A DNA stretch of 64,000 nucleotides from a virus, in IMG/VR virus record IMGVR_UViG_3300009149_000020, positions 1 to 64,000 of that record; one strand, 5' to 3'. A program made the translations under genes and the position numbers. Position 1 is the stretch's first letter. Each line of letters opens with the position of its first letter. This document shows positions 2,709 to 57,775 of the stretch, piece by piece. The notes beneath the pieces are model-generated. The model did not search any database. It worked only from the letters and a program-made list of their open reading frames with translations, and was not told the DNA's origin.

Positions 2709-3098
2709 ATGAAGATTAGACACGGTTTTGTTAGCAATTCATCTTCGACTGCTTTTATTGTTTGTAGGAATGAGTTAACAAGAGCACAGGAAGATTTATT
2801 GTTAGGATGTACACCTGCATTAGAAGAAGGCTGGAAAATAGGTATTGTAAACGACCACATAATCGGTTATGTTGATATGGATAATTTTGAGATTGAAGAT
2901 GTTTTGTTAGTATTAGAAATACATAGTGCTCGTATTTGTAGCTACCCCGATTTTCTTGATTATGCAGGATTGGAGAAACTTGTTAGATTAGGAAAAGTTT
3001 CTGAGTTTAATGGTCTTTACGGAGTGTGGGACCCAAGCAATAACTTTATTGCAGAAAGGGTGCCTGGCAAGAAATCACGCAAGTCAGCAAAAAGGTGA
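2709..3098 (+). CDS. SNSSS-start protein 1
   Basis: 129 residues. The N-terminus MKIRHGFVSNSSSTAFIV closely matches those of the genes at 3519 and 53024, while the rest of each protein differs. Conservation limited to the first ~18 residues suggests a recognition or processing signal rather than a shared fold. It lies 21 bp downstream of the radical-SAM-like gene with a 'TTTTAGGAGAATTT' ribosome site. The C-terminal end is basic (GKKSRKSAKR). No known catalytic motif is seen. Confidence 0.85.
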   Translation: MKIRHGFVSNSSSTAFIVCRNELTRAQEDLLLGCTPALEEGWKIGIVNDHIIGYVDMDNFEIEDVLLVLEIHSARICSYPDFLDYAGLEKLVRLGKVSEFNGLYGVWDPSNNFIAERVPGKKSRKSAKR

Positions 3099-3518: not shown

Positions 3519-4067
3519 ATGAAAGTTAGACGAGGCTTTGTTAGCAATTCCAGTTCAAGCAGTTTTATAATGGCCTTCTCTGAGAAGATACCTGAAACTG
3601 TTGAGGAATTACATTCAATATTATTTTGGGACAATGTAACAGGAGTTATTACTTCTACCTATTCAGAGTCAGTTGTTAGCACACACTTGCTTGCTACACG
3701 TATTTTTGAGAAAATTAAGAAAGAAGGTACATCTAACAAAGCAGAGATTATTGAAAAACTTGCATGGTCTGATCAAACTCGCGCACTACAAGCGGAGTAC
3801 TTTGCTTTACATGAAAATTATAAAGATGATACAAAGGCTTATAAACAAGCACAGTCTTTGTTAGATCAGCAAATGACTGAAGCAGCTGAAAGAATTTATA
3901 AGTATGTTTTATGTAAAGGCAGTGGGTATGATCACGTTCCTCCCTCAAACGTTGTAATGGTTGAATTCGAAGACAATGGTCTTTCCATAGATGCTATTAT
4001 TGAGCATAGCGCTATTATTAACGATGATGGTTATAGACTTACTGTTGTTACGGTTAATAATCATTAA
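3519..4067 (+). CDS. SNSSS-start protein 2
   Basis: 182 residues. It opens with MKVRRGFVSNSSSSSFIMAF, the most Ser-rich version of the shared N-terminal motif. The remainder is a helical, mildly acidic domain with no known motif. It shares no obvious similarity with SNSSS protein 1 beyond the start. It is preceded by AAGGAGGAACTA. It may be a target of the radical-SAM-like enzyme encoded 0.8 kb upstream; this is inference from position only. Confidence 0.85.
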   Translation: MKVRRGFVSNSSSSSFIMAFSEKIPETVEELHSILFWDNVTGVITSTYSESVVSTHLLATRIFEKIKKEGTSNKAEIIEKLAWSDQTRALQAEYFALHENYKDDTKAYKQAQSLLDQQMTEAAERIYKYVLCKGSGYDHVPPSNVVMVEFEDNGLSIDAIIEHSAIINDDGYRLTVVTVNNH

Positions 4068-4076
4068 GGAGTATTT

Positions 4077-4895
4077 ATGTCTAAATTGGTGAAATTTAAA
4101 ACAGGTGTAACATCCTACGAAATAAACAAAAAGTCTGATCCAGCCTTGTCCATTCTTCATCATATTAGTACAGGTTGGAAGAATTATACTGGCGATAGTA
4201 CTACTTCTACGCTTGTTACAAAGTTTTATATAGCAATGGCTCCTACTCCTGATATAACTTTGTTAGACGAGCAAGCAGATCGCTACTTGTACTATCGTAG
4301 AGGTAAATGGTCTGATCCAGCGGCTGCACACGACCCAGAATCATTAATCAGACAGACCTACCATACGTTATTAGGAGTGGCTACGCAAAATGTTAAACTG
4401 GATGCTGACCAAACTATTAGATATTTATATTATGAAAAGACACATGATCCAGATGCCAAAAAAGATATTGACCAAACTATAAGGTATAGATACTATGAGC
4501 TTTATCCTACCGATCCTGCTGCTAAAGACGATAGTCTTATGCATGCAAGACTCAACTACTATAGAAGTACACTATGGAAAGATAGTGACTGGTGTAAGGA
4601 TAAGACATTGCAAGTAGTTATTTCTGGATTGTATGAATCTTTAGAATTGCAGGTAGACGAAGAGGTGCTCAATGCTTTATTTACAACAGTAGGAGGAATG
4701 GACTTATACAACTTTAGTTATCACACCTTTTTCGTGTTTAAGGATGCTATCATTATCGAAAGACTTGCACAGTTAGTAAAAGAAGTAACTCCCGGGTTAT
4801 TCGGAAGGATGCTTTTAAATATTAAAGATTCTAACAAGAGACAAAAGTTTATGGAGTTTATGAAAAATCTTGGAGTAGTGGAGGAGCCGTGTTAA
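4077..4895 (+). CDS. YY/W repeat family protein
   Basis: 272 residues. From about residue 65 to 170 there are tandem units of ~20-25 residues built on 'IRYLYYE....DPDAKKDID', with a Tyr-Tyr pair, an acidic 'DxDAxxD' turn and a Trp in some copies. The last unit passes into the family core 'LWKDSDWCKD..LQVVISGLY'. The C-terminal segment 'PGLFGRMLLNIKDSNKRQKFMEFM' matches the tail seen in other members and in several ankyrin proteins here. It has no signal peptide. Function is unknown; it is probably an all-helical protein-binding solenoid. It overlaps the next gene by 7 bp. Confidence 0.88.
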   Translation: MSKLVKFKTGVTSYEINKKSDPALSILHHISTGWKNYTGDSTTSTLVTKFYIAMAPTPDITLLDEQADRYLYYRRGKWSDPAAAHDPESLIRQTYHTLLGVATQNVKLDADQTIRYLYYEKTHDPDAKKDIDQTIRYRYYELYPTDPAAKDDSLMHARLNYYRSTLWKDSDWCKDKTLQVVISGLYESLELQVDEEVLNALFTTVGGMDLYNFSYHTFFVFKDAIIIERLAQLVKEVTPGLFGRMLLNIKDSNKRQKFMEFMKNLGVVEEPC

Positions 4896-9592: not shown

Positions 9593-10450
9593 ATGGCTTA
9601 TGAAAAAAGTAACAGTCAATTAAGTACTCAGGCAGATGCGCTATCTCGGTTGTTGGGACGAAGTCAACCATGCGTAATGGAGGTAAATCACCTTCTAACA
9701 TCTAGTGAACAAAAATGGATACCTACAGCTTTATTATTTAAGACTATGTTCGATTCTGGTCTTAGTATAAATGAAGCGTTACTTAATGACATGAAAGCAG
9801 GCTGTACACTGGAACGTATGCTATATGCGTTAGCTACTAGTGATCCTATTTGTAAAAAAGACAAATCATTAAAAGTTAAATTCTGTTATCATTTGTCTAT
9901 TGATTTTGTTGATCCCGACGTTTTAAAAACTAAGAGTGTGGTAATTGAAAGGTTAGCCTTAAGAAGAAAACCTGGACTAAGAGATCAAGTTTCAATTTAT
10001 GCTTTAAGCGATGATCGTAGAAGGGCTTATTACAATGAGAAGGGCTGGGCTGAAGCTAAAATGGACCCTAACTACTCGTTTAGAAGATTGTACTATGACT
10101 CTGTAAAATGGAAGGATTACGATTGGTACTGTGATAGAGAAATGGATTTGATAAAAGAAGGCATAACGTTGTGCCCTTCTTTTGTAAATACGGAAGGTTT
10201 GCAAAGGTTTGCGCTTAAGTTAACTACTAATAAAACAGGCATGGAGAAACTATTTTATACACTTTATTGGGCTACCAAGCATTCTCAGGCACGTTGGCAA
10301 GAAATCAAACCGCAGTTTATCAAGTTTTTCTCATTGTTGTCCCCTGCGCAAAATACTGCAATAATGTTCAGTACAAAAAAAGAATACATAAGAGAGTTCT
10401 TTAAGGAAGTGCTTGTTAAGCAAGAAATGTCAGAAGGAGGCTTGAAATGA
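9593..10450 (+). CDS. YY/W repeat family protein
   Basis: 285 residues. Two imperfect YY/W units ('DRRRAYYNEKGWAEAKMD', 'SFRRLYYDSVKWKDYDWY') lead into the core 'DREMDLIKEGI...CPSFVNTEGL', then 'LTTNKTGMEKLF' and a C-terminal segment with 'SPAQNTAIMF' and 'REFFKEVLV'. It is very close to the gene at 10771 and clearly related to 11996: the phrase 'KTG(M/I)' and the spacing are kept. The three form one subgroup with a longer N-terminal domain. Its TGA overlaps the next ATG (ATGA). Confidence 0.88.
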   Translation: MAYEKSNSQLSTQADALSRLLGRSQPCVMEVNHLLTSSEQKWIPTALLFKTMFDSGLSINEALLNDMKAGCTLERMLYALATSDPICKKDKSLKVKFCYHLSIDFVDPDVLKTKSVVIERLALRRKPGLRDQVSIYALSDDRRRAYYNEKGWAEAKMDPNYSFRRLYYDSVKWKDYDWYCDREMDLIKEGITLCPSFVNTEGLQRFALKLTTNKTGMEKLFYTLYWATKHSQARWQEIKPQFIKFFSLLSPAQNTAIMFSTKKEYIREFFKEVLVKQEMSEGGLK

Positions 10451-10770: not shown

Positions 10771-11673
10771 ATGAGTGCTTTCATAGTTGACCCTAATAAA
10801 AGTCCTATTGAGAATAAAGCGTTAGAGCTTGAAGGTTATTCTTCGGGAGCAGGCAATAGTTCTGCATTGACTTGTATAAATAATACCTTCAGCAATTCCT
10901 GGGCTCCTTTAGCCTTTTTTCTTAAATCCTTAGTGGACTGTGGCCTCACTATGCCTCCAGATATAGTTGCTACTTTGAAGACTTCTTCCCTTGAACTTGA
11001 AAGGATGCTTTATGTTTTATTGACTAAAGACATTGATATGAAGAAAGATCCTAAACTTTCTGTAAAGTTTTGTTATTACCTTTCTGGTGACTTTGAAGAT
11101 ATTGATGTATTAAAGGTACCTAGTATCCCTTTTCAAAGTGCTGTCCTTCAAGCAAAACCTGATATCTTATCAGGCATTCCTGTTGAACGTTGGTCTCAGG
11201 AAGAAAGACAGAAACACTATAACGCTAAAGGTTGGTCTTTAGCAAAGAATGATTCATTCTTTAAATTTCGAATTAATTACTATAGAGAGGACAGGTGGCA
11301 AGATTTTGATTGGTATGAAGACAAAGAAATGAATGTAGTTGTTCAAGGTATTATTAATTGTAAAGATTTTCAAAAGACTGAAGGCCTGACGAAGTTTGCT
11401 ACCAAACTTGCTACTAATAAAACAGGTATTACAAAACTGTTTAAAAAGCATAGATATAGACATCGTAGATGGGAAAACGGTAAATATGTTTGGAAGGAGG
11501 GCTGGTCGGATTATTGGGAACCACATAGACCCCATTACATTAAATTTTTCTCAATGTTTTCTACAGCACAGATAACTGCTCTAATGTTTCAATGTGATAA
11601 GGATTACGCAAGAGAATTCTTTGCAGATCTTTTAGTTTTAAGGAATCAGTCAGAAGGAGAAGCTAATGGTTAA
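10771..11673 (+). CDS. YY/W repeat family protein
   Basis: 300 residues, a close paralog of the product of 9593: 'ERLYVLLTKDIDMKKD'-like N-terminal region, then 'RQKHYNAKGWSLAKND', 'FRINYYREDRWQDFDWY', 'KEMNVVVQGIINC', 'LATNKTGITKLF' and the tail 'STAQITALMFQCDKDYAREFF'. An inserted basic-aromatic stretch (about residues 229-252, many Arg, His and Trp) is absent from its paralog. It overlaps the HTH gene by 8 bp. Confidence 0.88.
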   Translation: MSAFIVDPNKSPIENKALELEGYSSGAGNSSALTCINNTFSNSWAPLAFFLKSLVDCGLTMPPDIVATLKTSSLELERMLYVLLTKDIDMKKDPKLSVKFCYYLSGDFEDIDVLKVPSIPFQSAVLQAKPDILSGIPVERWSQEERQKHYNAKGWSLAKNDSFFKFRINYYREDRWQDFDWYEDKEMNVVVQGIINCKDFQKTEGLTKFATKLATNKTGITKLFKKHRYRHRRWENGKYVWKEGWSDYWEPHRPHYIKFFSMFSTAQITALMFQCDKDYAREFFADLLVLRNQSEGEANG

Positions 11674-11995: not shown

Positions 11996-13030
11996 ATGAG
12001 TTCAAGTATAATTAATAAAACTTTTAAAAAGCTACAACGATTATTGTCCTCTGACGAACAAGGTTGTAACTTTCCTGATCGTACGATACCTACTAATGTT
12101 GAACGAAAATGTTTTACTACACTAATGATGGCGTTAAAAGAAATGGGTATACTAAAAATGCCTGCAGAAGGTGATGAGCACTATGAAGCTTTCAAGGATA
12201 TGAAAGAGTCTTCTGTGGTCGAAAAGCTTATATACACTATTATAACCGAAGACCCTGACATGGCGCTTGTTACTAATCCTGACATTAGATACGTATATTA
12301 CATGGCTAAAGGTTTTCCAGAAGAATGCTTAAAGGATAAGGCATCTGCAATAAAGGAGAGTGCTATAAGAGCGCATCCTAAATATATGAATAATGTAAAA
12401 GTATTTTATTCGTTAACTCCTACAGTACGAAGGGAGCATTACATTAAAAATGGTTGGGCCTTAGCAAAGAATGATCCATTCAATGAACATAGAATTGGTT
12501 ATTATAAAAGTGTTAACTGGAAAGATAACGACTGGTATGCTGATAAAGATATTATGGTGATTCTTAATGGAATCCATCATAGCGATACATTTGTTAAAAT
12601 AGATAACATAACTAAAATAATTAAAAAACTTGCAGAAACTAAAACGGGGATTCCTACGTTAATTGCAGGATACCGTTGTGATTTTTCATATTTAAACAAT
12701 CGTTTGGAGAATGGTGCTATTTATCTTCAGAGACCTGACAAGTTTTTTGAAAGTATTTCCGGAGCGCTTCGTACCTCTTATCGTGACGACTATGTTTATT
12801 TAGAACAGGAGTATCACAGTCAAGCAAAGGACAGGTATTTTGATAAAGTTGCTACGTTTCTTTCACAAGCAGATGAAACTTTATTATCAGTACTACTATT
12901 GCAATCAAAGGTAGCAGAGTTTAGACAAATTATTAAGATTGCTCTTGATAAAAAACAAGGCATTGAGCCTGAGCCTGCAAAAGTGCGTGATCCTAAAGGG
13001 AAGCTTAAAAGAAAATTAAATTTTACATAA
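11996..13030 (+). CDS. YY/W repeat family protein
   Basis: 344 residues, third member of the 9593/10771 subgroup. The shared order is the N-terminal helical part 'SVVEKLIYTIITEDPDMALV', YY units ('VRREHYIKNGWALAKND', 'HRIGYYKSVNWKDNDWY'), the core 'KDIMVILNGIHH', 'LAETKTGIPTLI', then the tail 'DETLLSVLLLQSKVAEFRQII'. A basic end (RDPKGKLKRKLNFT) follows. It is preceded by TAGGAGGTTTAA. Function unknown. Confidence 0.88.
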   Translation: MSSSIINKTFKKLQRLLSSDEQGCNFPDRTIPTNVERKCFTTLMMALKEMGILKMPAEGDEHYEAFKDMKESSVVEKLIYTIITEDPDMALVTNPDIRYVYYMAKGFPEECLKDKASAIKESAIRAHPKYMNNVKVFYSLTPTVRREHYIKNGWALAKNDPFNEHRIGYYKSVNWKDNDWYADKDIMVILNGIHHSDTFVKIDNITKIIKKLAETKTGIPTLIAGYRCDFSYLNNRLENGAIYLQRPDKFFESISGALRTSYRDDYVYLEQEYHSQAKDRYFDKVATFLSQADETLLSVLLLQSKVAEFRQIIKIALDKKQGIEPEPAKVRDPKGKLKRKLNFT

Positions 13031-13041
13031 GGAGGTTTATT

Positions 13042-13563
13042 ATGGTAAGCAAGAGAAGAGCATTACTCCCTAAGCAGCTAAAAAGAATCATTCCTGTAGA
13101 GTGGAAAGATGCTCGAGACTCTAGACTTGTAATCGCTTATTATCTAAGCACATCTTGGAAAGATTTTGTTTTCCATGAATCAGGATGTGTTCCCGTTCTT
13201 CTTGCATATTTTCGTTCGACTTCGTGGACAGATTTTAGATGGTATACTTGTAATATGCCTAGTGTTATACATGCAGGTTTTATGGAGTGTCAGACTTTTC
13301 TTATAAATGATGCCTTCTTCAAAGCGTTTGAATACTTCCTTGCAACTAGTAGTCTAATACTGTCACAACAAGGAGTCAAGCCACCTCTCGGTTATAATAC
13401 AGCGACTACAGGAGATCCTTATCCAAAGGATGTATTTAAAAATCTTTTTATGTCTTTTGATAGTGTAGTATTAGCTGAATTGTTATTCCACATAACTATT
13501 AACGAACATATTAAAAAGATTATGGTTGAGTGTATGGATGAAAAAGACAAACTGGAGGATTAA
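13042..13563 (+). CDS. YY/W repeat family protein, short
   Basis: 173 residues; essentially the family core without the long N-terminal part. Two units ('RLVIAYYLSTSWKDF', 'VLLAYFRSTSWTDFRWY') are followed by 'PSVIHAGFMECQTFLINDAFF' and the tail 'SVVLAELLFHITINEHIKKIM'. The phrase 'C.(T/S)FLIN(D/E).F' is shared with 15142 and 55852, defining a second subgroup. Its TAA overlaps the next ATG. Confidence 0.87.
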   Translation: MVSKRRALLPKQLKRIIPVEWKDARDSRLVIAYYLSTSWKDFVFHESGCVPVLLAYFRSTSWTDFRWYTCNMPSVIHAGFMECQTFLINDAFFKAFEYFLATSSLILSQQGVKPPLGYNTATTGDPYPKDVFKNLFMSFDSVVLAELLFHITINEHIKKIMVECMDEKDKLED

Positions 13564-14582
13564 TGCGAAGTATACGAGCATACTATGATATTGTTGTAAA
13601 TGCTGCTACGTTAGCAGGAGACACTCTTCAAAAGCCTCCTGACTCTTTTAAAACTTCTCGTAAGACTATAGAAAGATGTTTTTATGCAATTACATCTAAG
13701 GATGACGCTATGAGTGTCGACCCTAACCCTAATGTAAGAGCTTGTTATTATCATTCAATAGGTTGGTCAGATGGTGCAGCAGTAGGTGACTCAGCGGCTT
13801 ATATTAGAGAGCATTACTTAAAAAGTAGTGATAAGTGGCCTACAAAGATAGGAGACAAAGCAAGTCCTGTTGCTAAAGATAGGAGACGTTACTACTCTTG
13901 TAAGGGTTGGAAAGACGAGGATGCCAAGAAAGACGAAGATCCTGCAACAAGAAAGGCACATTATTCTGCAGGAAGGTGGCAAGACGCAGACGCGAAGAAA
14001 GATAAAGACAGTGGTGTAAGAAGATGCTACTATCAAGAGCATCATTGGAAAGATGAAGATGCTGGCAGGGATAAGGATGCTGGTATAAGAGAGGACTACT
14101 ATGCTAAAAATCCTCAAGACGTTAATGTAATACAATTTGGTAATGTCGAGCAGCGACGTAAATACTATAGGCATGTGGGTTACGCAACAGCAAAAGGAAA
14201 GACGTCTAAAAATGATTCTAATGCTGTTATTCGCTTACAATATTATAACAGTAGTGACTGGAGTGATACTGATTGGATAAAGGATACTAGTTTAACAGTA
14301 GTGCATACTGGTTTTAGAATAGCACCATCTTTTTTTATTACTGATGATTTTACGGAGAAACTCTTAACATTTCTAGAGTCTACGGACGGTGGTATTCGTG
14401 TATGCATTAATCATATGTTATTATTATCTCTTTTGCCTAGTAGTCTGCTTTCAGCGTTACTTTTAAAAAAAGGGTTGCCTGTTAGTGTGAAGGCAATAAT
14501 CAACTATGTTTTGATAATAAAAGTTAATCAGGAGAGTGAAGATGGACTTAGAGGTAAAACCGTCAATTTTCCTTTTAAGTGA
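13563..14582 (+). CDS. YY/W repeat family protein, most repeats
   Basis: 339 residues and the best display of the repeat. Between residues ~50 and 240 there are about eight units, the cleanest being 'RRYYSCKGWKDEDAKKDED', 'RKAHYSAGRWQDADAKKD' and 'RRCYYQEHHWKDEDAGRD'. The repeat is (I/V)RxxYYxxxxWxDxDAxxDxD, 20-22 residues. The core 'DWSDTDWIKD..LTVVHTGF' and tail 'PSSLLSALLLKKGLPVSVKAI' follow. Identical KKDKD/KKDED blocks suggest recent unit duplication. The 3' end overlaps the phosphoesterase gene by 41 bp. Confidence 0.9.
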   Translation: MRSIRAYYDIVVNAATLAGDTLQKPPDSFKTSRKTIERCFYAITSKDDAMSVDPNPNVRACYYHSIGWSDGAAVGDSAAYIREHYLKSSDKWPTKIGDKASPVAKDRRRYYSCKGWKDEDAKKDEDPATRKAHYSAGRWQDADAKKDKDSGVRRCYYQEHHWKDEDAGRDKDAGIREDYYAKNPQDVNVIQFGNVEQRRKYYRHVGYATAKGKTSKNDSNAVIRLQYYNSSDWSDTDWIKDTSLTVVHTGFRIAPSFFITDDFTEKLLTFLESTDGGIRVCINHMLLLSLLPSSLLSALLLKKGLPVSVKAIINYVLIIKVNQESEDGLRGKTVNFPFK

Positions 14583-15141: not shown

Positions 15142-15927
15142 ATGACAGAAGGAAAAATCGTCACGGTCTTCAAAACAGAAAAAGAGTACAAACATTCCTT
15201 AACAAATACGTTCACTAATGAGGCTAATGCTGCAAAACAACTTGTTAAAATGCTCGAATTTGTCAAAGAATTTATAAAGCAGAAGGGCTACTGGCTTAGA
15301 TACCGTCGCGACCGCGACGTTACAACTTTCTCAGATTTTTTAGCTCTCAAACAAGCAACTGAATGGTGGGAAAGAGAAGACTACTATTCAGCTGTGCGTT
15401 GGCAAGATCTAGATTGTTTTACTGATAGTAGTGAGCATCTACGATATCGTGCTTTTAGACATCATTGTAGATTTGATTTAATGAAAGTAGACCAGGCTTA
15501 TACAATCAGAAAACACTACTATACGCAAACAAACTGGTTGGACAAGGATGCTATAAACGATGCTAGTGTTTACGTTATTAGATACGATTACTACAAACAC
15601 CATTCCTGGACAGATTTTTCGTGGTATGATGATCCTAATGAATATATTATTTGTGCGGGGTTTAAAGAGTGTACAACTTTTTTAATCAATGAACGCTTTT
15701 TTAATATGTTAGGAAGATATGTTATGTGTAAACGTACTGCTTCGCACAAGATTCAGCAACTACTACCACACATACCAGCGGAAGTGATAAAACTTCTTCT
15801 TTTCAAACAGATTCAAACTAAAGCTGTTAGAAATATCTTAGAACAGAGTTTAAAAACAAGAGCCAAGGAGGAAACAAATGGAAACCAAGAACGAAAAACA
15901 AAGACTAACTTTGCTGGATCGAATTAA
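15142..15927 (+). CDS. YY/W repeat family protein
   Basis: 261 residues. Units 'WWEREDYYSAVRWQDLDC', 'IRKHYYTQTNWLDKDAIND' and 'IRYDYYKHHSWTDFSWYDD' precede the core 'EYIICAGFKECTTFLINERFF' and the tail 'PAEVIKLLLFKQIQTKAVRNI'. It belongs to the 'FLIN' subgroup with 13042 and 55852. It starts directly after the phosphoesterase stop and overlaps the next gene by 50 bp, which is long for this window and suggests tight coupling. Confidence 0.88.
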   Translation: MTEGKIVTVFKTEKEYKHSLTNTFTNEANAAKQLVKMLEFVKEFIKQKGYWLRYRRDRDVTTFSDFLALKQATEWWEREDYYSAVRWQDLDCFTDSSEHLRYRAFRHHCRFDLMKVDQAYTIRKHYYTQTNWLDKDAINDASVYVIRYDYYKHHSWTDFSWYDDPNEYIICAGFKECTTFLINERFFNMLGRYVMCKRTASHKIQQLLPHIPAEVIKLLLFKQIQTKAVRNILEQSLKTRAKEETNGNQERKTKTNFAGSN

Positions 15928-29553: not shown

Positions 29554-29568
29554 GGTGAGGAGGAATAA

Positions 29569-30843
29569 ATGAAAAGATCTTATAATGATGTACCTTATGA
29601 CGAGACCCTTGTAACGACAGCCCTTCATGTTATTTTTAAAAAGCTATATGATCTCCCAGATAAGAGATTATTTAGAGTAGTATATGCTCGATTCATAGAT
29701 AAACAAACTCTGAAAGCTATTGCAAAGAAGGAGAAGCTGTCACATGATAGAATACATCAGTTAGAGTGTAAAGGCTTAAAAAAGGTAGCACCTCTCTTAG
29801 CTTATTTCTTTGACGAGTTTACTAACGCTGGTCGAAATAGTTACCCGTATGTTTTTAATGGCTCTCAGCCACTGAAGGTGCATGTAAAGTATGTCATACA
29901 TACATTAGTTTCTAGTGATCCTGTACAAGCAAAAGATATAGCTGATTGTATAGGAGCAGGTTGTAAGATACGTGATGACTATATGGAAATCATTGAACAT
30001 CCTGAACCTATAACAGAGACAACTACATTATTTTCTGATATGTTCCGTGATGGTGTTAGTCATGTACGCGTATCAACTAGACTAATGAATTCTCTTAACG
30101 CAGCAGGTATCCAGACAGTTGGTGACTTGGTTCAGAAAACAGTGAACGATTTAACGGATCTTAAAGACTTTGGGAGAACGAGTCTTGATGCTGTTCGCTA
30201 TTTTTTACTAAAGAACAATATTGATTGCGACCTAACTAAAGCATGCAAAAAAGTAGGCGAGGATGTTGAGATAACACTTGACACCTCTTTAACGCAGGAC
30301 ATGTTAGATAGAAGAGCGATGGGTTGCTGTAAACTAGGAAATATCCGAACAGTTGGTGACTTAGTTGGAAAGACGCCTAGCGAATTGTACGGACTTAGAA
30401 ACTTTGGAAGAAAGACTTATAGTATTATACAACAGTTCCTTAAGAATAACAATCTTTCTTTAAAAGAAGAGCCTAAGAAAACATACGCACACAAGGAAGG
30501 CACGGCAAAAAGAACGCAAAGCATTGAAGTTGAATCAGAAGCAGGCATGACAAAAATGCTCGATATGGTTCCAAAATGTGAAGAGCGCACTCACTTACAC
30601 ATAGTGCGGGAGGGTGCGAAAGGGGCAACTGTTACCTGTTCCTGCGAAAGAAACACTTGTAAATTTGATAAAGCTGAGGATAAGCATGGCTCAGGTGATT
30701 TAGAAGATTTCTATCGCCAAAGACTTTCGGAGCTTCGAAAAAAGCAAGACAAAATGATTGAGGACTTAGCAGCGGTAAACACAGAAATAAAAGAAACACA
30801 GAAGTCTATCTTAAGCATAGACAACAGATATGAGGAGGAATAA
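29569..30843 (+). CDS. Transcription factor with sigma-4-like HTH and two alpha-CTD-like domains
   Basis: 424 residues. Residues ~37-75 ('RLFRVVYARFIDKQTLKAI' then 'KLSHDRIHQLECKGLKKV') resemble sigma-70 region 4. Residues ~166-217 and ~243-291 each match the RNA polymerase alpha C-terminal domain: 'STRLMNSLNAAGIQTVGDLVQKT...DFGRTSL' and 'DRRAMGCCKLGNIRTVGDLVGKT...NFGRKTY'. The E. coli DNA-contact residues Arg265, Asn268, Gly296 and Ser299 appear kept in copy 1; copy 2 keeps the Arg and Gly. A Cys-containing segment (~345-365, TCSCERNTC) and a coiled coil (~385-424) end the protein. It probably redirects host RNA polymerase by binding UP-element-like DNA. No sigma region 2 is seen, so it is not a complete sigma factor. 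Confidence 0.82.
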   Translation: MKRSYNDVPYDETLVTTALHVIFKKLYDLPDKRLFRVVYARFIDKQTLKAIAKKEKLSHDRIHQLECKGLKKVAPLLAYFFDEFTNAGRNSYPYVFNGSQPLKVHVKYVIHTLVSSDPVQAKDIADCIGAGCKIRDDYMEIIEHPEPITETTTLFSDMFRDGVSHVRVSTRLMNSLNAAGIQTVGDLVQKTVNDLTDLKDFGRTSLDAVRYFLLKNNIDCDLTKACKKVGEDVEITLDTSLTQDMLDRRAMGCCKLGNIRTVGDLVGKTPSELYGLRNFGRKTYSIIQQFLKNNNLSLKEEPKKTYAHKEGTAKRTQSIEVESEAGMTKMLDMVPKCEERTHLHIVREGAKGATVTCSCERNTCKFDKAEDKHGSGDLEDFYRQRLSELRKKQDKMIEDLAAVNTEIKETQKSILSIDNRYEEE

Positions 30844-43699: not shown

Positions 43700-44083
43700 G
43701 TGCTTAGTGAAGAGAAGATGAAAGAGTATCAAAAAGAATGGTATCAGAAAAACAAAGAAAAGATAAAAGAAAAGCATAAAGAATACCGTCAGAAAAACAA
43801 AGAAAAGATAAAAGAAAAGCATAAAGAATACCGTCAGGAAAACAAAGAAAAGATAAAAGAATACTATCAGGAAAATAAAGAGAAGCTACAAGAGTATCAA
43901 AAAGAGTACTATCAGGAAAATAAAGAGAAGCGGAAAGCATATTTACAGGAAAATAAAGAGAAGATACAAGAGTATCAAAAAGAGTATCAAAAAGAGTATC
44001 AAAAAGAGTATCAAAAAGAGTATCGTATCAAAAATAAACAGAGAGCAAACGCACAGAAGATGAAGGAGAAAAGTAATGATTGA
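43700..44083 (+). CDS. Lys/Glu/Tyr repeat coiled-coil protein, GTG start
   Basis: 127 residues from GTG 43700 (AAGGAGGACTAG upstream). Almost entirely built of 'EYQKE(W/Y)YQ.NKEKIKE' units: an exact 15-codon repeat (QKNKEKIKEKHKEYR) twice, looser copies, then four exact copies of a four-codon repeat (EYQK). Expected to be a long, charged helix. Similar stretches occur beside HNH/homing endonuclease domains in phages, but no such domain is present here. Overlaps rtcB by 8 bp. Confidence 0.75.
   Translation: MLSEEKMKEYQKEWYQKNKEKIKEKHKEYRQKNKEKIKEKHKEYRQENKEKIKEYYQENKEKLQEYQKEYYQENKEKRKAYLQENKEKIQEYQKEYQKEYQKEYQKEYRIKNKQRANAQKMKEKSND
43745..44029 (+). repeat. In-gene tandem repeats (45 bp and 12 bp)
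   Basis: Two identical 45-bp copies lie at 43745-43789 and 43790-43834. Further on, GAGTATCAAAAA occurs four times in exact tandem (43970-44017), followed by the partial copy GAGTATCGTATC. Both keep the reading frame (15 and 4 codons). Exact identity implies recent slippage or unequal exchange, so length may vary between relatives. Confidence 0.92.
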
Positions 44084-45554
44084 GATTAAAGGAAAGTACA
44101 CTGAAGCAATTGTACATATTGATGAGGTAGAAGAAAGCTGCATTGCGCAAATTCAGTCAATGTGCAATCATTCTGCATTTACAAACCCTATTAAAATCAT
44201 GCCTGATTGTCATGCAGGTAAAGGTTCTGTGATAGGCTTTACTATGCCGTTAGGAGACATGCTAATTGCTAATGTGGTCGGAGTTGACATAAACTGCGGA
44301 ATGCTGTCTATAAATGTAGGCCCTGACGCATTTACAAAGTTAACTTTTGTTGAAGTTGAGAAAAAGATAAGAGAAGCTATTCCATTCGGAATGTCAACAC
44401 ATACTCCAGAAGACGCTATTAATATGGAGAAAGAGTTTCCGTGGAAGAACGTTAATGAAGAAGTAAGAGAATTTCTAAGGGCATTTGAAAAGAAATTTGG
44501 CTTTACAGTGGCTCCTCCTGTTATTAATTATGAATGGTTCAGGGCTAAGTGTAAACAAATAAGCTGTGACCCTTCAAGAGCTATAAGAAGTCTCGGAACA
44601 CTTGGCTCGGGCAATCATTTCGTCGAAGTTGGAAAGGCTGAAACCACTAGAGACTACTGGGTTACAATCCATTCAGGTTCTAGAAACTTTGGTAAATGTA
44701 TTTGTGATTATTGGCAAGGAGTTGCTAAGAAAATGCTCGATGATAAAAGAAACGGTGCATATCAAGAGAGAGTGTTAACGCTTAGAAGTAACCACGAAGC
44801 TGCCGGTACACCTGAGTTAATTCCTCAAGGCATAAAGCAACTTCGAGAAGAGTTAGGCTTTCTTGGTATAACCAAAGGAATGGAAGCATTAGAAGGAACT
44901 GATATGCTTAGTTATTTGATAGACATGGTCTTTACACAGAAGTATGCTGATGTGAACAGACAAGTCATGGCTTTCAAAATTAAAGGTATCTTTAAGTGTG
45001 AAGAAAAAGACTCTATTCACACTAAACATAACTTTATAGACTTCAAGGATTTCATAATTCGTAAAGGAGCTATCAGAAGTTATGTAGATGAAAGAATGAT
45101 TATTCCTTTTAACATGCGTGATGGTATTTTAATCTGTGAAGGCAAATCTAATACTGACTGGAACTTTTCAGCTCCTCATGGTGCAGGAAGAGTAATGAGC
45201 AGAGGAGATGCAAAAAGGAAACTTAACATGGAGCAGTTTACACATCAGATGAAAGGCATCTATACTACGTCTGTTTGTGAAAGCACATTAGACGAAGCTC
45301 CTAATGCTTATAAAAAGTCAGAGTTAATTGAAAGTTTGATAGGAGACACAGTTACAATTCTTGATAGGGTTAAACCAGTAATTTCTATGAAAGACAGAGG
45401 CTCTGCTCAAACTGCTATTGATAGAAAGAAAGCAAAAAGATCGTGGAAGAAAGAAAGAAGAGAAGCTGCAAGATACAAAATGCAGGAAGCAAACGCAACT
45501 GCAAACCTTCAGAATAACAGACATGGAGTAGATGAAGAAGGGAGGTTATTTTGA
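44076..45554 (+). CDS. rtcB: RtcB-like RNA ligase
   Basis: 492 residues behind GAAGGAGAAAAGTA. RtcB motifs in order: 'MPDCHAGKG' (metal), 'VGVDINCGM' (metal Asp/Cys), 'GTLGSGNHF', 'IHSGSRNFG', 'HNFID', 'IRKGAIRS' and 'APHGAGRVMSR' with the His that accepts GMP. RtcB joins 2',3'-cyclic phosphate and 5'-OH RNA ends using GTP and Mn2+. A phage copy can repair tRNAs cut by host anticodon nucleases or splice RNA. A basic C-terminal extension (~440-492) exceeds the core. Length is within the family range. Confidence 0.95.
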   Translation: MIEIKGKYTEAIVHIDEVEESCIAQIQSMCNHSAFTNPIKIMPDCHAGKGSVIGFTMPLGDMLIANVVGVDINCGMLSINVGPDAFTKLTFVEVEKKIREAIPFGMSTHTPEDAINMEKEFPWKNVNEEVREFLRAFEKKFGFTVAPPVINYEWFRAKCKQISCDPSRAIRSLGTLGSGNHFVEVGKAETTRDYWVTIHSGSRNFGKCICDYWQGVAKKMLDDKRNGAYQERVLTLRSNHEAAGTPELIPQGIKQLREELGFLGITKGMEALEGTDMLSYLIDMVFTQKYADVNRQVMAFKIKGIFKCEEKDSIHTKHNFIDFKDFIIRKGAIRSYVDERMIIPFNMRDGILICEGKSNTDWNFSAPHGAGRVMSRGDAKRKLNMEQFTHQMKGIYTTSVCESTLDEAPNAYKKSELIESLIGDTVTILDRVKPVISMKDRGSAQTAIDRKKAKRSWKKERREAARYKMQEANATANLQNNRHGVDEEGRLF

Positions 45555-52183: not shown

Positions 52184-53049
52184 GTAAAAAAGAAAAGCAA
52201 CCACAAGTAAAAGAATTAACAAAGGAACAGCAAGCATTGTTCTTTGATTTGCCTGCAAGTACAAAAAGTGCGTTTCTTAGAAGGATGATTTATAGTGCAC
52301 TTGGTAGAAAGGATATCATAGCACTTAAAGAACTTGCATCGTTAGCTGATACATTAGGGTCTAATGTTTTTACACACGCTTCCACTTTAAAAGAAATAGG
52401 ACTCAGAGCCTCTTATGAAACTATACGTTTTTTAATGGAGCATCCTTTTATACAAAAAAATATTAAGAAGGGTAACGCTTTTCCTTTATTAAAAGGAGTG
52501 TGTATTTCAAAGGATACTGAATCACTACATTATTTTGTTGATCACCCTGAACATCCTGTGACACAATTAATTAAGGAAGCAGGTGTAGGTAATCGTATGT
52601 TTGCAAGCTATAATGACGAGCACAGTCCTATAATTGTGGCAGCTAGAGAAAAAGATCTGCATCTTATCAAAAAAATTATTGCAATGTATCCTCCAAATTC
52701 TAGATTCTCTCTTGAAGAAAAAAGTACAATTGTTTTAGACTACTTACGTAGTGCACTCAGTCCTTTGTCAACTGGTCTCACTTCTAAAAAAAAGCAGCAA
52801 GTGAAATCGGAGTGTCTTCGTATTGTTGACGAGATACTTTCTACAATGCATATAGAATTTGAAGAAATTGTAGCCCCTAAATATCATCCACTTACACACT
52901 GGATGCTTCCTTTTGTAGGCGAATTTATTTTTAAAGAAAAGCATTTAGGTATGTTAGCAATGCGTAAAGATTGGCAAGGTGAGGTTGCTAGAGAGCTATT
53001 AGCTAAAAAAGAGGAGAAGACTAATGAAAATCAGAACAGGCTTTATTAG
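52180..53049 (+). CDS. Ankyrin-like helical repeat protein
   Basis: 289 residues. Degenerate helix pairs ('LKEIGLRASYETIRFLMEHPFI', 'SPIIVAAREKDLHLIKKIIAMY') fit ankyrin spacing but lack the GADvN turn. The end 'HLGMLAMRKDWQGEVARELLAKKEE' resembles the shared C-terminal segment. Overlaps SNSSS protein 3 by 26 bp. Confidence 0.8.
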   Translation: MSKKEKQPQVKELTKEQQALFFDLPASTKSAFLRRMIYSALGRKDIIALKELASLADTLGSNVFTHASTLKEIGLRASYETIRFLMEHPFIQKNIKKGNAFPLLKGVCISKDTESLHYFVDHPEHPVTQLIKEAGVGNRMFASYNDEHSPIIVAAREKDLHLIKKIIAMYPPNSRFSLEEKSTIVLDYLRSALSPLSTGLTSKKKQQVKSECLRIVDEILSTMHIEFEEIVAPKYHPLTHWMLPFVGEFIFKEKHLGMLAMRKDWQGEVARELLAKKEEKTNENQNRLY

Positions 53050-53539
53050 TAACAGTTCGAGCAGTTCTTTCATTGTAGGAATAGGTATGCATCTATTAGA
53101 TGACATAAAAGATATGGAAAAATTAAAGTACATGCTTTGTGTAGAAGACTGGACAGAAGTTAATCCTTATAACGAGCCTGGAGAAGGTTTACCTATAGAC
53201 GAAGCTATTTCTATTTTACAAAATGACTTAGCGGAGGCTAAAGACGCAACTGAAGAAGAAATAATTGAATTATTATCGCGCAGTTACACATTGCAGTTGT
53301 ATGTTGCTGACAGTAATAACCTAGGTTTAGAGGATACACGAGAACAGCATGCTGCGCGCATTGCTAAAATACGCAAGGATTCTTTAGAGCTTGCTAAAAA
53401 CTATTGGAATAACTACAAGAAAGATAACACAAAGTATTTTATTCTTGACTATGCTGACGACGAAGATGCATGTATGGAACACGGCGGGTTACTTGAGCAA
53501 GGTGCAGGTGTTAGCTGTATTAGAATTTCGAATCATTAA
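53024..53539 (+). CDS. SNSSS-start protein 3
   Basis: 171 residues, ATG 53024 (AAGAGGAGAAGACTA upstream). Opens MKIRTGFISNSSSSSFIVGI, nearly identical to the two at 2.7 and 3.5 kb, although 50 kb away and surrounded by ankyrin-type genes. The remainder is acidic and helical ('LARIAKIRKDSLELAKN'-like). It ends '..GVSCIRISNH', and SNSSS protein 2 ends '..TVVTVNNH', so a short beta-strand plus N-H end may also be shared. No radical SAM gene lies near this copy in the window. Confidence 0.88.
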   Translation: MKIRTGFISNSSSSSFIVGIGMHLLDDIKDMEKLKYMLCVEDWTEVNPYNEPGEGLPIDEAISILQNDLAEAKDATEEEIIELLSRSYTLQLYVADSNNLGLEDTREQHAARIAKIRKDSLELAKNYWNNYKKDNTKYFILDYADDEDACMEHGGLLEQGAGVSCIRISNH

Positions 53540-54319: not shown

Positions 54320-55192
54320 ATGGCATATATTAGTTTCAAAAAACCTAGCACAAAAAAGCATCGACCTAATCTTAAAAGTAAAGATTTAAAAGTGCTTAAT
54401 CACGATACAATTAAACCTTGGATACAAAAGCATTTATATGCGTCTGCGTTAGGGTATGTTAAGAGTCGCTCGAGGGTGAAGGAAGAGTATCCTTCTAAAG
54501 CTACAGATTTGTTTATGCTTTTAAGAACGCTAAAGATTCCTATTAGAGGAAGACTTCTTTTTGCCATTGGAGAAAGAGGCACAGTACAGTTTATAAGCTG
54601 GTTTATTGATGAGATGCAAAACGGGAAACTTTCACACTCGTCAGCCTATCGTATATTAATGGGAATGGTTTACAGTGGAAGGCGTGATGAAATCGCATAC
54701 TTACTTAAAAAATATATACATCTTTTTAAACCTGTATTACACAAACCTTGGAATCAGCACGCTGATGGAGCTATGGGTAACTCCATTTTTTCAGCCCTAA
54801 CTAATGTAAATGGAGGATATCACCCTGATATTAGGGACATCCTAAAAGAAGCGTTTAAAGGTGAAAATATTCCCGAACTATTTCCTAAAAACACTTTCCT
54901 AGAGTTACTAACGTATCGGAAGGTTAAGTGTGCTTTAGTAATACTTGATGTATTAAGCATTAACCCCTTTGTAGACATACCCTCTAAATACTTTGAATTA
55001 GAAGGAAGAGGGAGTAACAACTTTGTAGGTTATGAAAAAGAACTAACTAATGTACTATGCCAGTATATAGTTAACAATTGTGATGAATCTGAAGCAAGTA
55101 TGTTATGTTTTCATAAAAATACAATAATAAAACAGGCTGCTTCTAACGCTCTACTACTTATCAGTAAAGGAGAAAATAATGGAGACGTTTAA
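54320..55192 (+). CDS. Ankyrin-like helical repeat protein
   Basis: 290 residues. Basic N-terminus (KKPSTKKHRPNLKSKDLK), then helix pairs with weak ankyrin spacing ('GTVQFISWFIDEMQNGKL', 'RRDEIAYLLKKYIHLF'). The tail 'SEASMLCFHKNTIIKQAASNALLL' is the shared C-terminal segment. Overlaps the next YY/W gene by 14 bp, placing the two tail-bearing classes side by side. Confidence 0.8.
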   Translation: MAYISFKKPSTKKHRPNLKSKDLKVLNHDTIKPWIQKHLYASALGYVKSRSRVKEEYPSKATDLFMLLRTLKIPIRGRLLFAIGERGTVQFISWFIDEMQNGKLSHSSAYRILMGMVYSGRRDEIAYLLKKYIHLFKPVLHKPWNQHADGAMGNSIFSALTNVNGGYHPDIRDILKEAFKGENIPELFPKNTFLELLTYRKVKCALVILDVLSINPFVDIPSKYFELEGRGSNNFVGYEKELTNVLCQYIVNNCDESEASMLCFHKNTIIKQAASNALLLISKGENNGDV

Positions 55193-55847
55193 AGTTCATA
55201 CTAGCTCTTATAAACTTGCTAAACTTGGAAATTTTTTATCATACTTCGATTGTCCTTTTCCTCCAAGAATAAGTGATGGCGCAACATTGTTAGGGGCCAT
55301 CCTCGAATTAATGAAAAGAGGGGCAACTGTTGAATTACCTGAAACATTTAAAACTTCTAAGGATTGGTGGGATAGAGCGGCTTATTGTTTAACAACAGGA
55401 AAGGAGCTTCCAAATGACACATCTAAGTTAGTGAGGTGCGCTTACTTAATGACTTGTCCTGAAGTAGAAGAAGCCAAGCATAATTCTTACGAAGTAATTA
55501 GAGCATTATACTATACAGCAAATAATTGGACAGACCCTGATTGGTTGTTGGATGACTCTGCTAAGATACGTAGACAAGGTGCTGTATTGAGCCCAAGCGT
55601 TGACTTTACCCAAGAGAGTGTAACAACAGCATATATCGCTTTACTTAATGATATTCTTCAAACTACACATGCTAAACGTTTAACTAGTAAAAATGACTTT
55701 AACATTTTACGAACATTACAAAAGCTGGAGAAAGCTATACTTTCGCGTTTACTACTTGAGAATGACAAAATTATACACCCACGTTTTAAAAAAGTTATTA
55801 AAGACATTCTTGACGAAGTACCAGTTGAAAAGATTTTTGGAGGGTAA
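55179..55847 (+). CDS. YY/W repeat family protein
   Basis: 222 residues. N-terminal 'KTSKDWWDRAAYCLTTGKELP' resembles the pre-repeat region of 13563; then 'VIRALYYTANNWTDPDWLLDD' and core 'KIRRQGAVLSPSVDF'. The tail 'LEKAILSRLLLENDKIIHPRFKKVIKDIL' fits the shared segment. Only one full YY/W unit, so this is a short member. Confidence 0.85.
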   Translation: METFKVHTSSYKLAKLGNFLSYFDCPFPPRISDGATLLGAILELMKRGATVELPETFKTSKDWWDRAAYCLTTGKELPNDTSKLVRCAYLMTCPEVEEAKHNSYEVIRALYYTANNWTDPDWLLDDSAKIRRQGAVLSPSVDFTQESVTTAYIALLNDILQTTHAKRLTSKNDFNILRTLQKLEKAILSRLLLENDKIIHPRFKKVIKDILDEVPVEKIFGG

Positions 55848-55851
55848 GCGT

Positions 55852-56676
55852 ATGGGATGGTTAACCGGAAAGGGTACCGAAGTAGAGAAAAAGGAAAAAA
55901 CAGAAGATGTGTTTGACTATAAGATTAAAAGAGATTCAGACAATTATGTTAACGTTAAACACTATAGGCAAAAGTATTCGCTTAATTATCGAGATAGGTT
56001 TGAGTATTATGCTAATGTAACGGACTGGAAGGACGAAGACGCAAGAGACGATCCTGCAGAAACAGTCAGACGTACTTACTATGATACGTGTGCTTGGAAG
56101 GATGCTTATGCAAAAAAAGATGAGTCTGTAACTATTAGATATACTTATTACAAAAATAATAAATGGAAGGACGCTGATGCAAAAAAAGATGAAAATGCAG
56201 ATATACGTATTTCCTACTATGATGCTCATAACTGGTCTGACTTTGATTGGTATACGGAGACAAACTTATCTGTTATAAACAAAGGTTTTAGCTCCTGCCA
56301 GTCATTCTTAATAAACGACGACTTTATACAATGCTTAGAACTAGTTCTTGTACAGCCACCACCTTATTCTCAGATCGCAGTATGGTTAGGCCCCTTTGAC
56401 CTATATTCTTTATTTAAACTAGTATCTAGGTTATCTGAAGCACTATGTTCTAGATTATTATTTGCTCAGTTGCAAGACGCAACTCGAGAGCTTATTGGAT
56501 TTTTTATGACAATTAAGAATGATGATAAAAAATTTGTACAGTTCTGGCAGATCATTATAGAAGCTAATGATGATCATCCATCTTTAAAGTGTACCTCACT
56601 AGCTACAGCTGTAGCAGAATGTACTGTCGCAGATTTAGAAGAGACGGAGGAAGTGATTGAAGAAACCGAAATATAG
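55852..56676 (+). CDS. YY/W repeat family protein
   Basis: 274 residues from ATG 55852; a longer in-frame ORF from 55693 overlaps the preceding gene throughout and is rejected. Five regular units between residues ~25 and 135, such as 'VRRTYYDTCAWKDAYAKKDE', 'IRYTYYKNNKWKDADAKKDE' and 'IRISYYDAHNWSDFDWY'. Core 'LSVINKGFSSCQSFLINDDF', tail 'SEALCSRLLFAQLQDATRELI'. 'FLIN' subgroup. The last 35 residues are acidic. Overlaps the next gene by 20 bp. Confidence 0.9.
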   Translation: MGWLTGKGTEVEKKEKTEDVFDYKIKRDSDNYVNVKHYRQKYSLNYRDRFEYYANVTDWKDEDARDDPAETVRRTYYDTCAWKDAYAKKDESVTIRYTYYKNNKWKDADAKKDENADIRISYYDAHNWSDFDWYTETNLSVINKGFSSCQSFLINDDFIQCLELVLVQPPPYSQIAVWLGPFDLYSLFKLVSRLSEALCSRLLFAQLQDATRELIGFFMTIKNDDKKFVQFWQIIIEANDDHPSLKCTSLATAVAECTVADLEETEEVIEETEI

Positions 56677-56923: not shown

Positions 56924-57775
56924 ATGACCACTGAAGAAAACGCAAAGTTTTTGAAAACATTTATAGAGAAAATAGATTATACTGTCATAAATGGCGCCAC
57001 TTTACGCATAATGACATCTGGCTTACTAGCACTAAAAGCAGCAAGAAACCTTACGAAGGTTACGGTAAGATCTAATTGCCTAGTTTCACGTAACTGGCAG
57101 TACTCTACCATATTTATAAATATGTTTGATGCTATTACATGTGATTGTACTAAAGAGGATGAGCAAAAGTATTTAAAGAATTTAGACATAAGCGTAAGAC
57201 TTTGCTATTATGCAAATGCACAAAATATTAAATTGATGTTTGAGGATCATTGTGTAGATGTTAGGAGAATAGGGTATGAGTTAGCAATGTATCCAGAGGA
57301 GATGAAAAAAGATAGAGCGACTAGTATTCGCCGTGGGTATTATAAGTATCATCATATGGGATATCATTTAGATATGAAACATGATACGCATTATGAGGTA
57401 AAGAGACAATATTACAAACATAACGCTTATCAAGATATAGATTGGATCATCGATCCTCACAGTCAAATTTTTTGCAATGGTTTTAATAATGCGTTGGATG
57501 GTAATCGTTTGTCCGATGACCAAGTAGCAGCGCTTAAAGCATCATTAACTAAGCGGCATATAAAAAGATTTTTTGAAAGAATCATAAACCTTAATTATTA
57601 TAGTCAACGATTCACTAGTAATAATGTGGGTAAACAGCAACTTCTTAGTATCATGTATGATTTAGCGCCAACACTATTTGTGCGTACTGTATTTTCATTA
57701 AAGGACGCAGAAGCACGAAAGGCCTGGCAATCAATAGTTCATGAGAAAGAAAGGAGGAACGTATGCAAGAAGTAG
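56924..57775 (+). CDS. YY/W repeat family protein
   Basis: 283 residues behind TAAGGAGGTTAA. Loose units 'ISVRLCYYANAQNIKLMFED', 'IRRGYYKYHHMGYHLDMKHD', then 'VKRQYYKHNAYQDIDWIID' and core 'SQIFCNGFNNALDG'. The tail 'APTLFVRTVFSLKDAEARKAW' keeps the pattern. It is the most diverged of the repeat-bearing members (Trp often replaced). Overlaps the next gene by 13 bp. Confidence 0.85.
   Translation: MTTEENAKFLKTFIEKIDYTVINGATLRIMTSGLLALKAARNLTKVTVRSNCLVSRNWQYSTIFINMFDAITCDCTKEDEQKYLKNLDISVRLCYYANAQNIKLMFEDHCVDVRRIGYELAMYPEEMKKDRATSIRRGYYKYHHMGYHLDMKHDTHYEVKRQYYKHNAYQDIDWIIDPHSQIFCNGFNNALDGNRLSDDQVAALKASLTKRHIKRFFERIINLNYYSQRFTSNNVGKQQLLSIMYDLAPTLFVRTVFSLKDAEARKAWQSIVHEKERRNVCKK

Follow-up and report, generated by a model that had tools for sequence, protein, structure and literature searches.

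The C-terminal domain (alpha-CTD) of the RNA polymerase (RNAP) alpha subunit is usually regarded as a tethered part of that subunit. What, then, might it do when two copies of it sit in a separate protein together with a sigma-region-4-like (sigma4-like) helix-turn-helix (HTH), in a virus whose own RNAP appears to have no alpha? This is the question raised by one gene in the window analysed here, a 64,000-nucleotide stretch of DNA from a virus record of 82,826 bases (IMGVR_UViG_3300009149_000020); positions given as "record" count along the whole record, the others along the window. An earlier note on this DNA had placed an open reading frame (ORF) with a sigma4-like HTH and two alpha-CTDs at 29569-30843, and our searches recover it at exactly those coordinates. 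The features of the gene, with the evidence for each in brackets, are:

29569-30843, plus strand: gene encoding a sigma4-HTH / tandem alpha-CTD protein of 424 aa (ORF; Pfam, NCBIfam and PDB matches)
29557-29564, plus strand: GAGGAGGA, the gene's Shine-Dalgarno sequence (seen in the DNA letters themselves)
29674-29787, plus strand: sigma-70 region-4-like HTH, residues 36-73 (Sigma70_r4, hhalign, pLDDT)
29836-30018, plus strand: predicted helical linker, about residues 90-150 (AlphaFold model, mostly pLDDT 46-68)
30055-30198, plus strand: alpha-CTD copy 1, with R171 equivalent to E. coli R265 (PF03118, PDB matches, alignment)
30286-30444, plus strand: alpha-CTD copy 2, with R249 equivalent to E. 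coli R265 and Gly252 at the N268 position (PF03118, alignment)
30694-30837, plus strand: predicted C-terminal coiled coil, residues 376-423 (AlphaFold model, pLDDT 84-96 at residues 381-424)

The reading frame starts with ATG; in the intergenic DNA of the record, GGAGG-type words are the commonest among the enriched words. Profile matches and the structure model together show one sigma-region-4-like HTH, two alpha-CTDs (at about residues 160-218 and 240-299) that retain the key DNA-contact arginine, and at the C-terminus a predicted coiled coil, which is a possible oligomerisation element. The linker (about residues 90-150) matched no family, and residues 316-370, ahead of the coiled coil, are poorly modelled by AlphaFold. 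Close relatives of the whole protein were found neither in IMG/VR nor in GTDB, and none were found in INPHARED at 1e-5.

To the Pfam model of the alpha-CTD (RNA_pol_A_CTD, PF03118) the whole protein matches in two stretches with E=9.9e-22 (76.9 bits), and each domain alone exceeds the curated cut-off of 23.8 bits (copy 1, 46.7 bits; copy 2, 36.0 bits). The NCBIfam RpoA models match both copies, and the phmmer matches of the protein in the PDB are almost entirely RNAP alpha subunits. The two copies align to each other with a local score of 97, where 2000 shuffles reached 48 at most, and both carry the GDLV(Q/G)KT and (D/N)FGR(T/K) signatures pointed out earlier: TVGDLVQKT...KDFGRTS in copy 1 (last residue 205) and TVGDLVGKT...RNFGRKT in copy 2 (last residue 283). 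The earlier note had also left room for unrelated helix-hairpin-helix (HhH) domains, such as those of ligases or polymerases, fitting better than the alpha-CTD. HhH models do match the protein, but far more weakly (RAD51D_N, 3.6e-6; HHH_5, 1.3e-4; Pfam), and a generic HhH was rejected, the E-value of the alpha-CTD model being better by roughly 15 powers of ten.

Our AlphaFold model was built on 42 aligned viral alpha-CTD proteins, a single-sequence model having reached a pLDDT of only 44; an alpha-CTD motif had served to select that alignment, which makes the model and the sequence evidence less than fully independent. Alpha-CTD 1 is modelled with confidence (mostly pLDDT 88-96), as is the terminal coiled coil, and alpha-CTD 2 moderately (pLDDT 71-79 over residues 261-300). 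In a Foldseek search, each of the 50 best-ranked PDB matches was an RNAP alpha chain or the CTD of one. Superposition on isolated alpha-CTD chains, a check proposed in the earlier note, gave TM-scores by target of up to 0.91, with an rmsd of about 1 A. By profile and predicted fold, both domains are alpha-CTDs, and binding to A/T-rich UP DNA is predicted for them.

The contact residues were numbered via Salmonella RpoA, whose alpha-CTD region is as in E. coli. In this alignment the Arg265 equivalent, which had seemed to be kept in both copies, is indeed R171 in copy 1 and R249 in copy 2, and the G296 equivalent is present in both as well (G202 and G280). At the N268 position stand N174 in copy 1 and G252 in copy 2, at K298 T204 and K282, and at S299 S205 and T283, respectively; the E302 equivalent is lost from both. 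The R265-type minor-groove residue by which we judged the alpha-CTD class thus appears in each copy, with the remaining contacts partly kept. Compared with the RNAP alpha-CTD (PF03118; 8y5t, 7vpd, 1lb2, 3gfk), the domains are alike in fold, motif spacing and the R265 and G296 equivalents, whereas copy 2 is without an N268 equivalent and neither copy has E302. The chain as a whole also differs, carrying two copies behind a sigma4-like HTH and no alpha-NTD assembly domain. Because the alpha-NTD family (PF01000) is absent from the protein, as it is from the whole record, we rejected the window protein as an RpoA; it is not an alpha subunit.

Residues 36-73 are likely a sigma-70 region-4 HTH, albeit a borderline one. 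When the protein alone was scanned against Pfam, Sigma70_r4 matched with E=7.4e-5 and 22.6 bits, just below the cut-off of 24.1; in the genome search it scored 25.8 bits, above the cut-off. Because this match is joined by an hhalign comparison of the region with five other sigma4 regions (E=4e-6, 87%) and by a helical fold (residues 21-80, pLDDT above 86 in blocks of ten in the AlphaFold model), we favour the assignment, and the sigma-4-like helix pair read by eye in the earlier note gains support. Its DRIHQLECKGLKKV recognition helix aligns to the ERIRQIEAKALRKL-type helices of sigma-70 region 4 (PF04545). However, the face contacting the -35 element is altered relative to sigma70. Four residues which we take to form that face are R584, E585, R588 and Q589; the first three are replaced by H59, D60 and H63, and Q589 is kept as Q64. 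Since Pfam found no match in the protein to sigma region 2 (-10 recognition, core binding), we rejected it as a sigma factor; it departs from the sigma-70 family in having neither region 2 nor region 3, in its altered base-contact residues and in its borderline Pfam score. A 221-aa ORF elsewhere (record 66044-66709) looked sigma-like by eye; it had no Pfam support and was not used.

Is this architecture peculiar to the window protein? The earlier note had found it unfamiliar in phages, which holds for the tandem alone. With a degenerate DNA pattern for the alpha-CTD we retrieved 65 IMG/VR stretches, mostly genuine alpha-CTD proteins with diverse partners; in phages the module is joined to Cro-like HTH, HTH_17, DUF3310 and coiled coils. 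In set A5 (n=43, including the window protein), all 43 proteins match PF03118 and 8 match Sigma70_r4. The combination thus occurs in 7 of the 42 other viral proteins (L141, L147, L151, L156, L157, L159 and L167), each assigned by a single scan or by near identity. Two human-gut phage contigs encode near full-length relatives of L141, and the Chryseobacterium plasmid protein WP_124785686.1 likewise has a sigma4-HTH followed by a single alpha-CTD. All of these share with the window protein the order of HTH and alpha-CTD, but they have one alpha-CTD against its two, and some have an extra N-terminal HTH; on those of the viral records that were searched, no RNAP genes were found. None has an annotation more specific than "alpha C-terminal domain-containing protein". 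The window protein therefore falls into a recurrent architecture, in which a single chain carries a sigma4-type HTH and, after it, one or more alpha-CTDs, and among the sigma4 plus alpha-CTD relatives found it is the only one with tandem alpha-CTDs. As far as our searches show, the design is recurrent, has no description in the literature searched, and is new here in its tandem form.

Judged from its genes, the virus encodes its own alpha-less RNAP, with a beta' gene (record 71994-74900; 968 aa, NADFDGD intact) in tandem with a beta gene (record 74917-78075; 1052 aa), both outside the window (record 71994-78075 is L003 8095-14176). A clade of Caudovirales with beta and beta' is already known, the mReC phages (PMC7481178), and phage-encoded beta and beta' with NADFDGD are common to them and the virus analysed here; a search of PMC7481178 for "alpha" and "sigma factor" found neither. 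The RNAPs of jumbo phages have been described as being without alpha (PMC7598289, PMC5312081). The record also encodes RecA, an SbcC-like protein and 21 tRNAs, and directly upstream of beta' is a gene (L003 6506-8056) with a LigD 3'-phosphoesterase-like domain (PF13298, E=3e-24).

About 41 kb separate the window gene from the genes for beta' and beta; it is not in the conserved RNAP block but in a region of the genome that varies. A beta' alignment search of IMG/VR retrieved 59 loci. The closest RNAP relative, the 84-kb contig IMG/VR 3300009149_000019 (60-62% identical for beta'/beta), has 58.9-79 kb of the record in common in the same order, and no homologue of the window protein was found in it. 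Among 46 records encoding a related beta' (several above 200 kb, many of them fragments), PF03118 exceeded its cut-off in none, with one weak match in a 618-aa frame; unlike the window record, the RNAP relatives found here are thus without an alpha-CTD protein. Given this absence from the closest relative and from the 46 beta'-encoding records, many of them fragments, the window gene is by comparison an accessory gene and not a conserved RNAP subunit.

Elsewhere in the genome we observed an expanded family of paralogues in which R..YY....W.D.D/A motifs recur (IRYTYYKNNKWKDADAKKDENADIRISYY, for example); relatives also occur in the sister contig, and the single member scanned had no Pfam match:

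Window 4077-4895, 9593-10450, 10771-11673, 11996-13030, 13042-13563, 13563-14582: R..YY....W.D.D/A family
Window 15142-15927, 55179-55847, 55693-56676, 56924-57775; record 78636-79391: further members of the family

The three proteins encoded at 2709-3098, 3519-4067 and 53024-53539 have a common MK(I/V)R.GF(V/I)SNSSS start and then differ. Ankyrin-repeat-like proteins are many, by eye unusual for a phage (453-1593, 25899-26438, 39481-40397, 48743-50963 and others), and an RtcB RNA ligase (44076-45554) is 48% identical to its copy in the sister contig, with different neighbouring genes.

On which DNA might the window protein act? The earlier note had suggested looking for A/T tracts upstream of phage promoters, and such tracts were found at two near-consensus sigma70-type promoters, at record 65686 and record 80146, where 23-24 of the 26 upstream bases are A/T and A-tracts stand directly upstream of TTGACA (AAAAAATAATTTAAAAAAAGCTAAAAAAAGG-TTGACA-N18-TATACT; AAAAATAAAAAATAAAAAGG-TTGACA-N17-TATACT). 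At record 65686 the A-tracts are about one turn apart and the promoter precedes a small gene; the second promoter precedes a 21-tRNA array (record 80387-82469; L003 16488-18570). The strict promoter combination, observed twice against none in 40 Markov simulations, is a setting chosen after both sites had been seen. It was not found in 3300009149_000019, which is without the window protein and also less A/T-rich. Counted genome-wide, all -35/-10 matches were no more frequent than in shuffles, and word and dyad counts in the intergenic DNA gave no phage-specific promoter motif beyond ribosome-binding sites and chance.

Our leading explanation, held at somewhat less than an even chance, is that the window protein is a phage accessory transcription-initiation factor. 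The two alpha-CTDs of an RNAP sit on the proximal and distal UP subsites. In the mechanism that we propose, the two alpha-CTDs of the window protein would grip the A/T-rich minor groove upstream of phage promoters, the sigma4-like HTH would then touch the -35 region, an RNAP beta-flap or both, and promoters like those at record 65686 and 80146 would be favoured; DNA binding, RNAP contact, the partner and the sign of the effect are what we infer here. As partner we favour the host holoenzyme over the phage enzyme, for two reasons: the promoters carry -35/-10 boxes of the host sigma70 type, and the gene shows no tie to the phage RNAP block. Sigma4 plus alpha-CTD proteins also occur on contigs without a recognised RNAP (G058, G060, G062, G065 and G066) and, if these are truly RNAP-less, could only serve the host enzyme there; the contigs are 35-105 kb long and may be fragments, and RNAP genes may have been missed. 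Roughly divided, our expectation falls foremost on the host RNAP, next on other activities and last on the phage RNAP. Against the leading explanation, host alpha would act on the A-tract promoters in any case, and in the alignments the -35 face of the HTH seems altered, copy 2 without an N268 equivalent and both copies without an E302 equivalent.

A rather unlikely role, though the best of the alternatives, is that of a dissociable specificity subunit of the phage's own RNAP, which would give an alpha-less enzyme UP-element reading and a sigma4-like contact, the two alpha-CTDs in one chain replacing the two CTDs of the alpha dimer. The record does encode beta' (968 aa) and beta (1052 aa) with no alpha-NTD, in keeping with the phage RNAPs described without alpha (PMC7598289, PMC5312081), and two further, apparently independent RNAP-encoding lineages carry alpha-CTD proteins. 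One of them has gp119 of Bacillus phage AR9 (YP_009283024.1; L021 1243-1956, minus strand; AR9 NC_031039 93982-94695), of which PBS1 has near-identical copies and Goe21 one at 84%; AR9 gp119 and PBS1 gp6 carry the annotations "RNA polymerase" or "RNA polymerase subunit A". Both domains are weak by Pfam (E=0.011, 0.017) and co-linear by profile comparison (E=2e-5), and the AR9/PBS1/Goe21 protein is probably a divergent sigma4-HTH plus alpha-CTD protein. AR9 gp119 resembles the window protein in having a sigma4-like HTH ahead of an alpha-CTD-like domain, and AR9 too encodes multisubunit RNAPs (msRNAPs) of its own, but gp119 is very divergent, with a single CTD and no detectable full-length homology to the window protein. 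The third lineage, one of large phages, has a 103-120-aa alpha-CTD-only protein, 56-95% identical, on its four contigs above 150 kb (157-194 kb), all four of which encode RNAP (L110, L111, L113, L123, L126, L129, L139, L154, L160, L171; G047, G048, G064, G070). The catalytic motif is intact in both RNAPs read, and in G047 beta-like and N-terminal beta'-like parts share one 1488-aa frame. The pairing of alpha-CTD proteins with an own msRNAP in three lineages, those of the window record, AR9 and the alpha-CTD-only protein, is suggestive at the level of gene content.

Most of the msRNAP phages examined, however, have no alpha-CTD, and on many alpha-CTD-bearing contigs no RNAP gene was found; profile A6, when run against phage genomes, is insensitive, missing AR9 and finding Goe21 weakly, so that its negatives carry little weight. 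The subunit role is further opposed by the lack of PF03118 over cut-off in all 46 beta'-encoding records and of any homologue in the closest, 62%-identical relative, by the position of the gene outside the conserved RNAP block, by its not being co-conserved with the RNAP genes, and by alpha-CTD proteins in many phages without known RNAP genes. The AR9 nvRNAP holoenzyme, moreover, has five subunits, with gp226 for specificity and gp119 not among them (PMC9209446). If the subunit role were right, the window protein would resemble the jumbo-phage nvRNAP subunits AR9 gp226 and phiKZ gp68 (PMC9209446) in being a separate protein with sigma-like elements that gives a phage RNAP its specificity; compared by description, AR9 gp226 has sigma2, a finger and a sigma4 helix, with no alpha-CTD described.

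It is a little less probable still that the window protein is an ordinary operator-binding regulator or a DNA-architecture protein, its alpha-CTDs mere minor-groove modules without RNAP contact. The many unrelated partners of the alpha-CTD in phages argue for such a generic use of the module, and the predicted coiled coil suggests an oligomer, but the recurrent pairing with a sigma4-type HTH (8/43 in set A5) points to promoters and not to arbitrary sites. Very improbable is a host-takeover decoy that lowers host transcription by occupying host UP elements, -35 boxes or sigma/flap surfaces: both modules mimic surfaces of the host holoenzyme and phages are known to attack the alpha-CTD (Alt on Arg265, as cited in PMC5312081; Rac, PMC7552054), but the conserved DNA-contact residues and the UP-like promoters in the phage suggest activation as readily, inhibition and activation being indistinguishable by sequence.

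We keep to the accessory initiation factor, probably one acting with the host holoenzyme, as our preferred reading. Wider in reach, and doubtful in our estimate, is the idea that a detachable module gives alpha-less viral msRNAPs two missing functions, UP-element reading and a sigma4-type upstream contact, and has done so independently in at least three lineages. If true, at least three RNAP-encoding phage lineages would independently have put the alpha-CTD back as a separate protein, and this would contradict the notion that no homologues of initiation factors can be recognised in such phages. Two questions become testable, namely how alpha-less phage polymerases recognise upstream DNA and whether free phage alpha-CTDs reprogramme the strength of host promoters. 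AR9/PBS1 gp119 may have been overlooked as a candidate protein of this kind; its phage is a jumbo phage that can be grown in the laboratory and is said to be without recognisable initiation factors.
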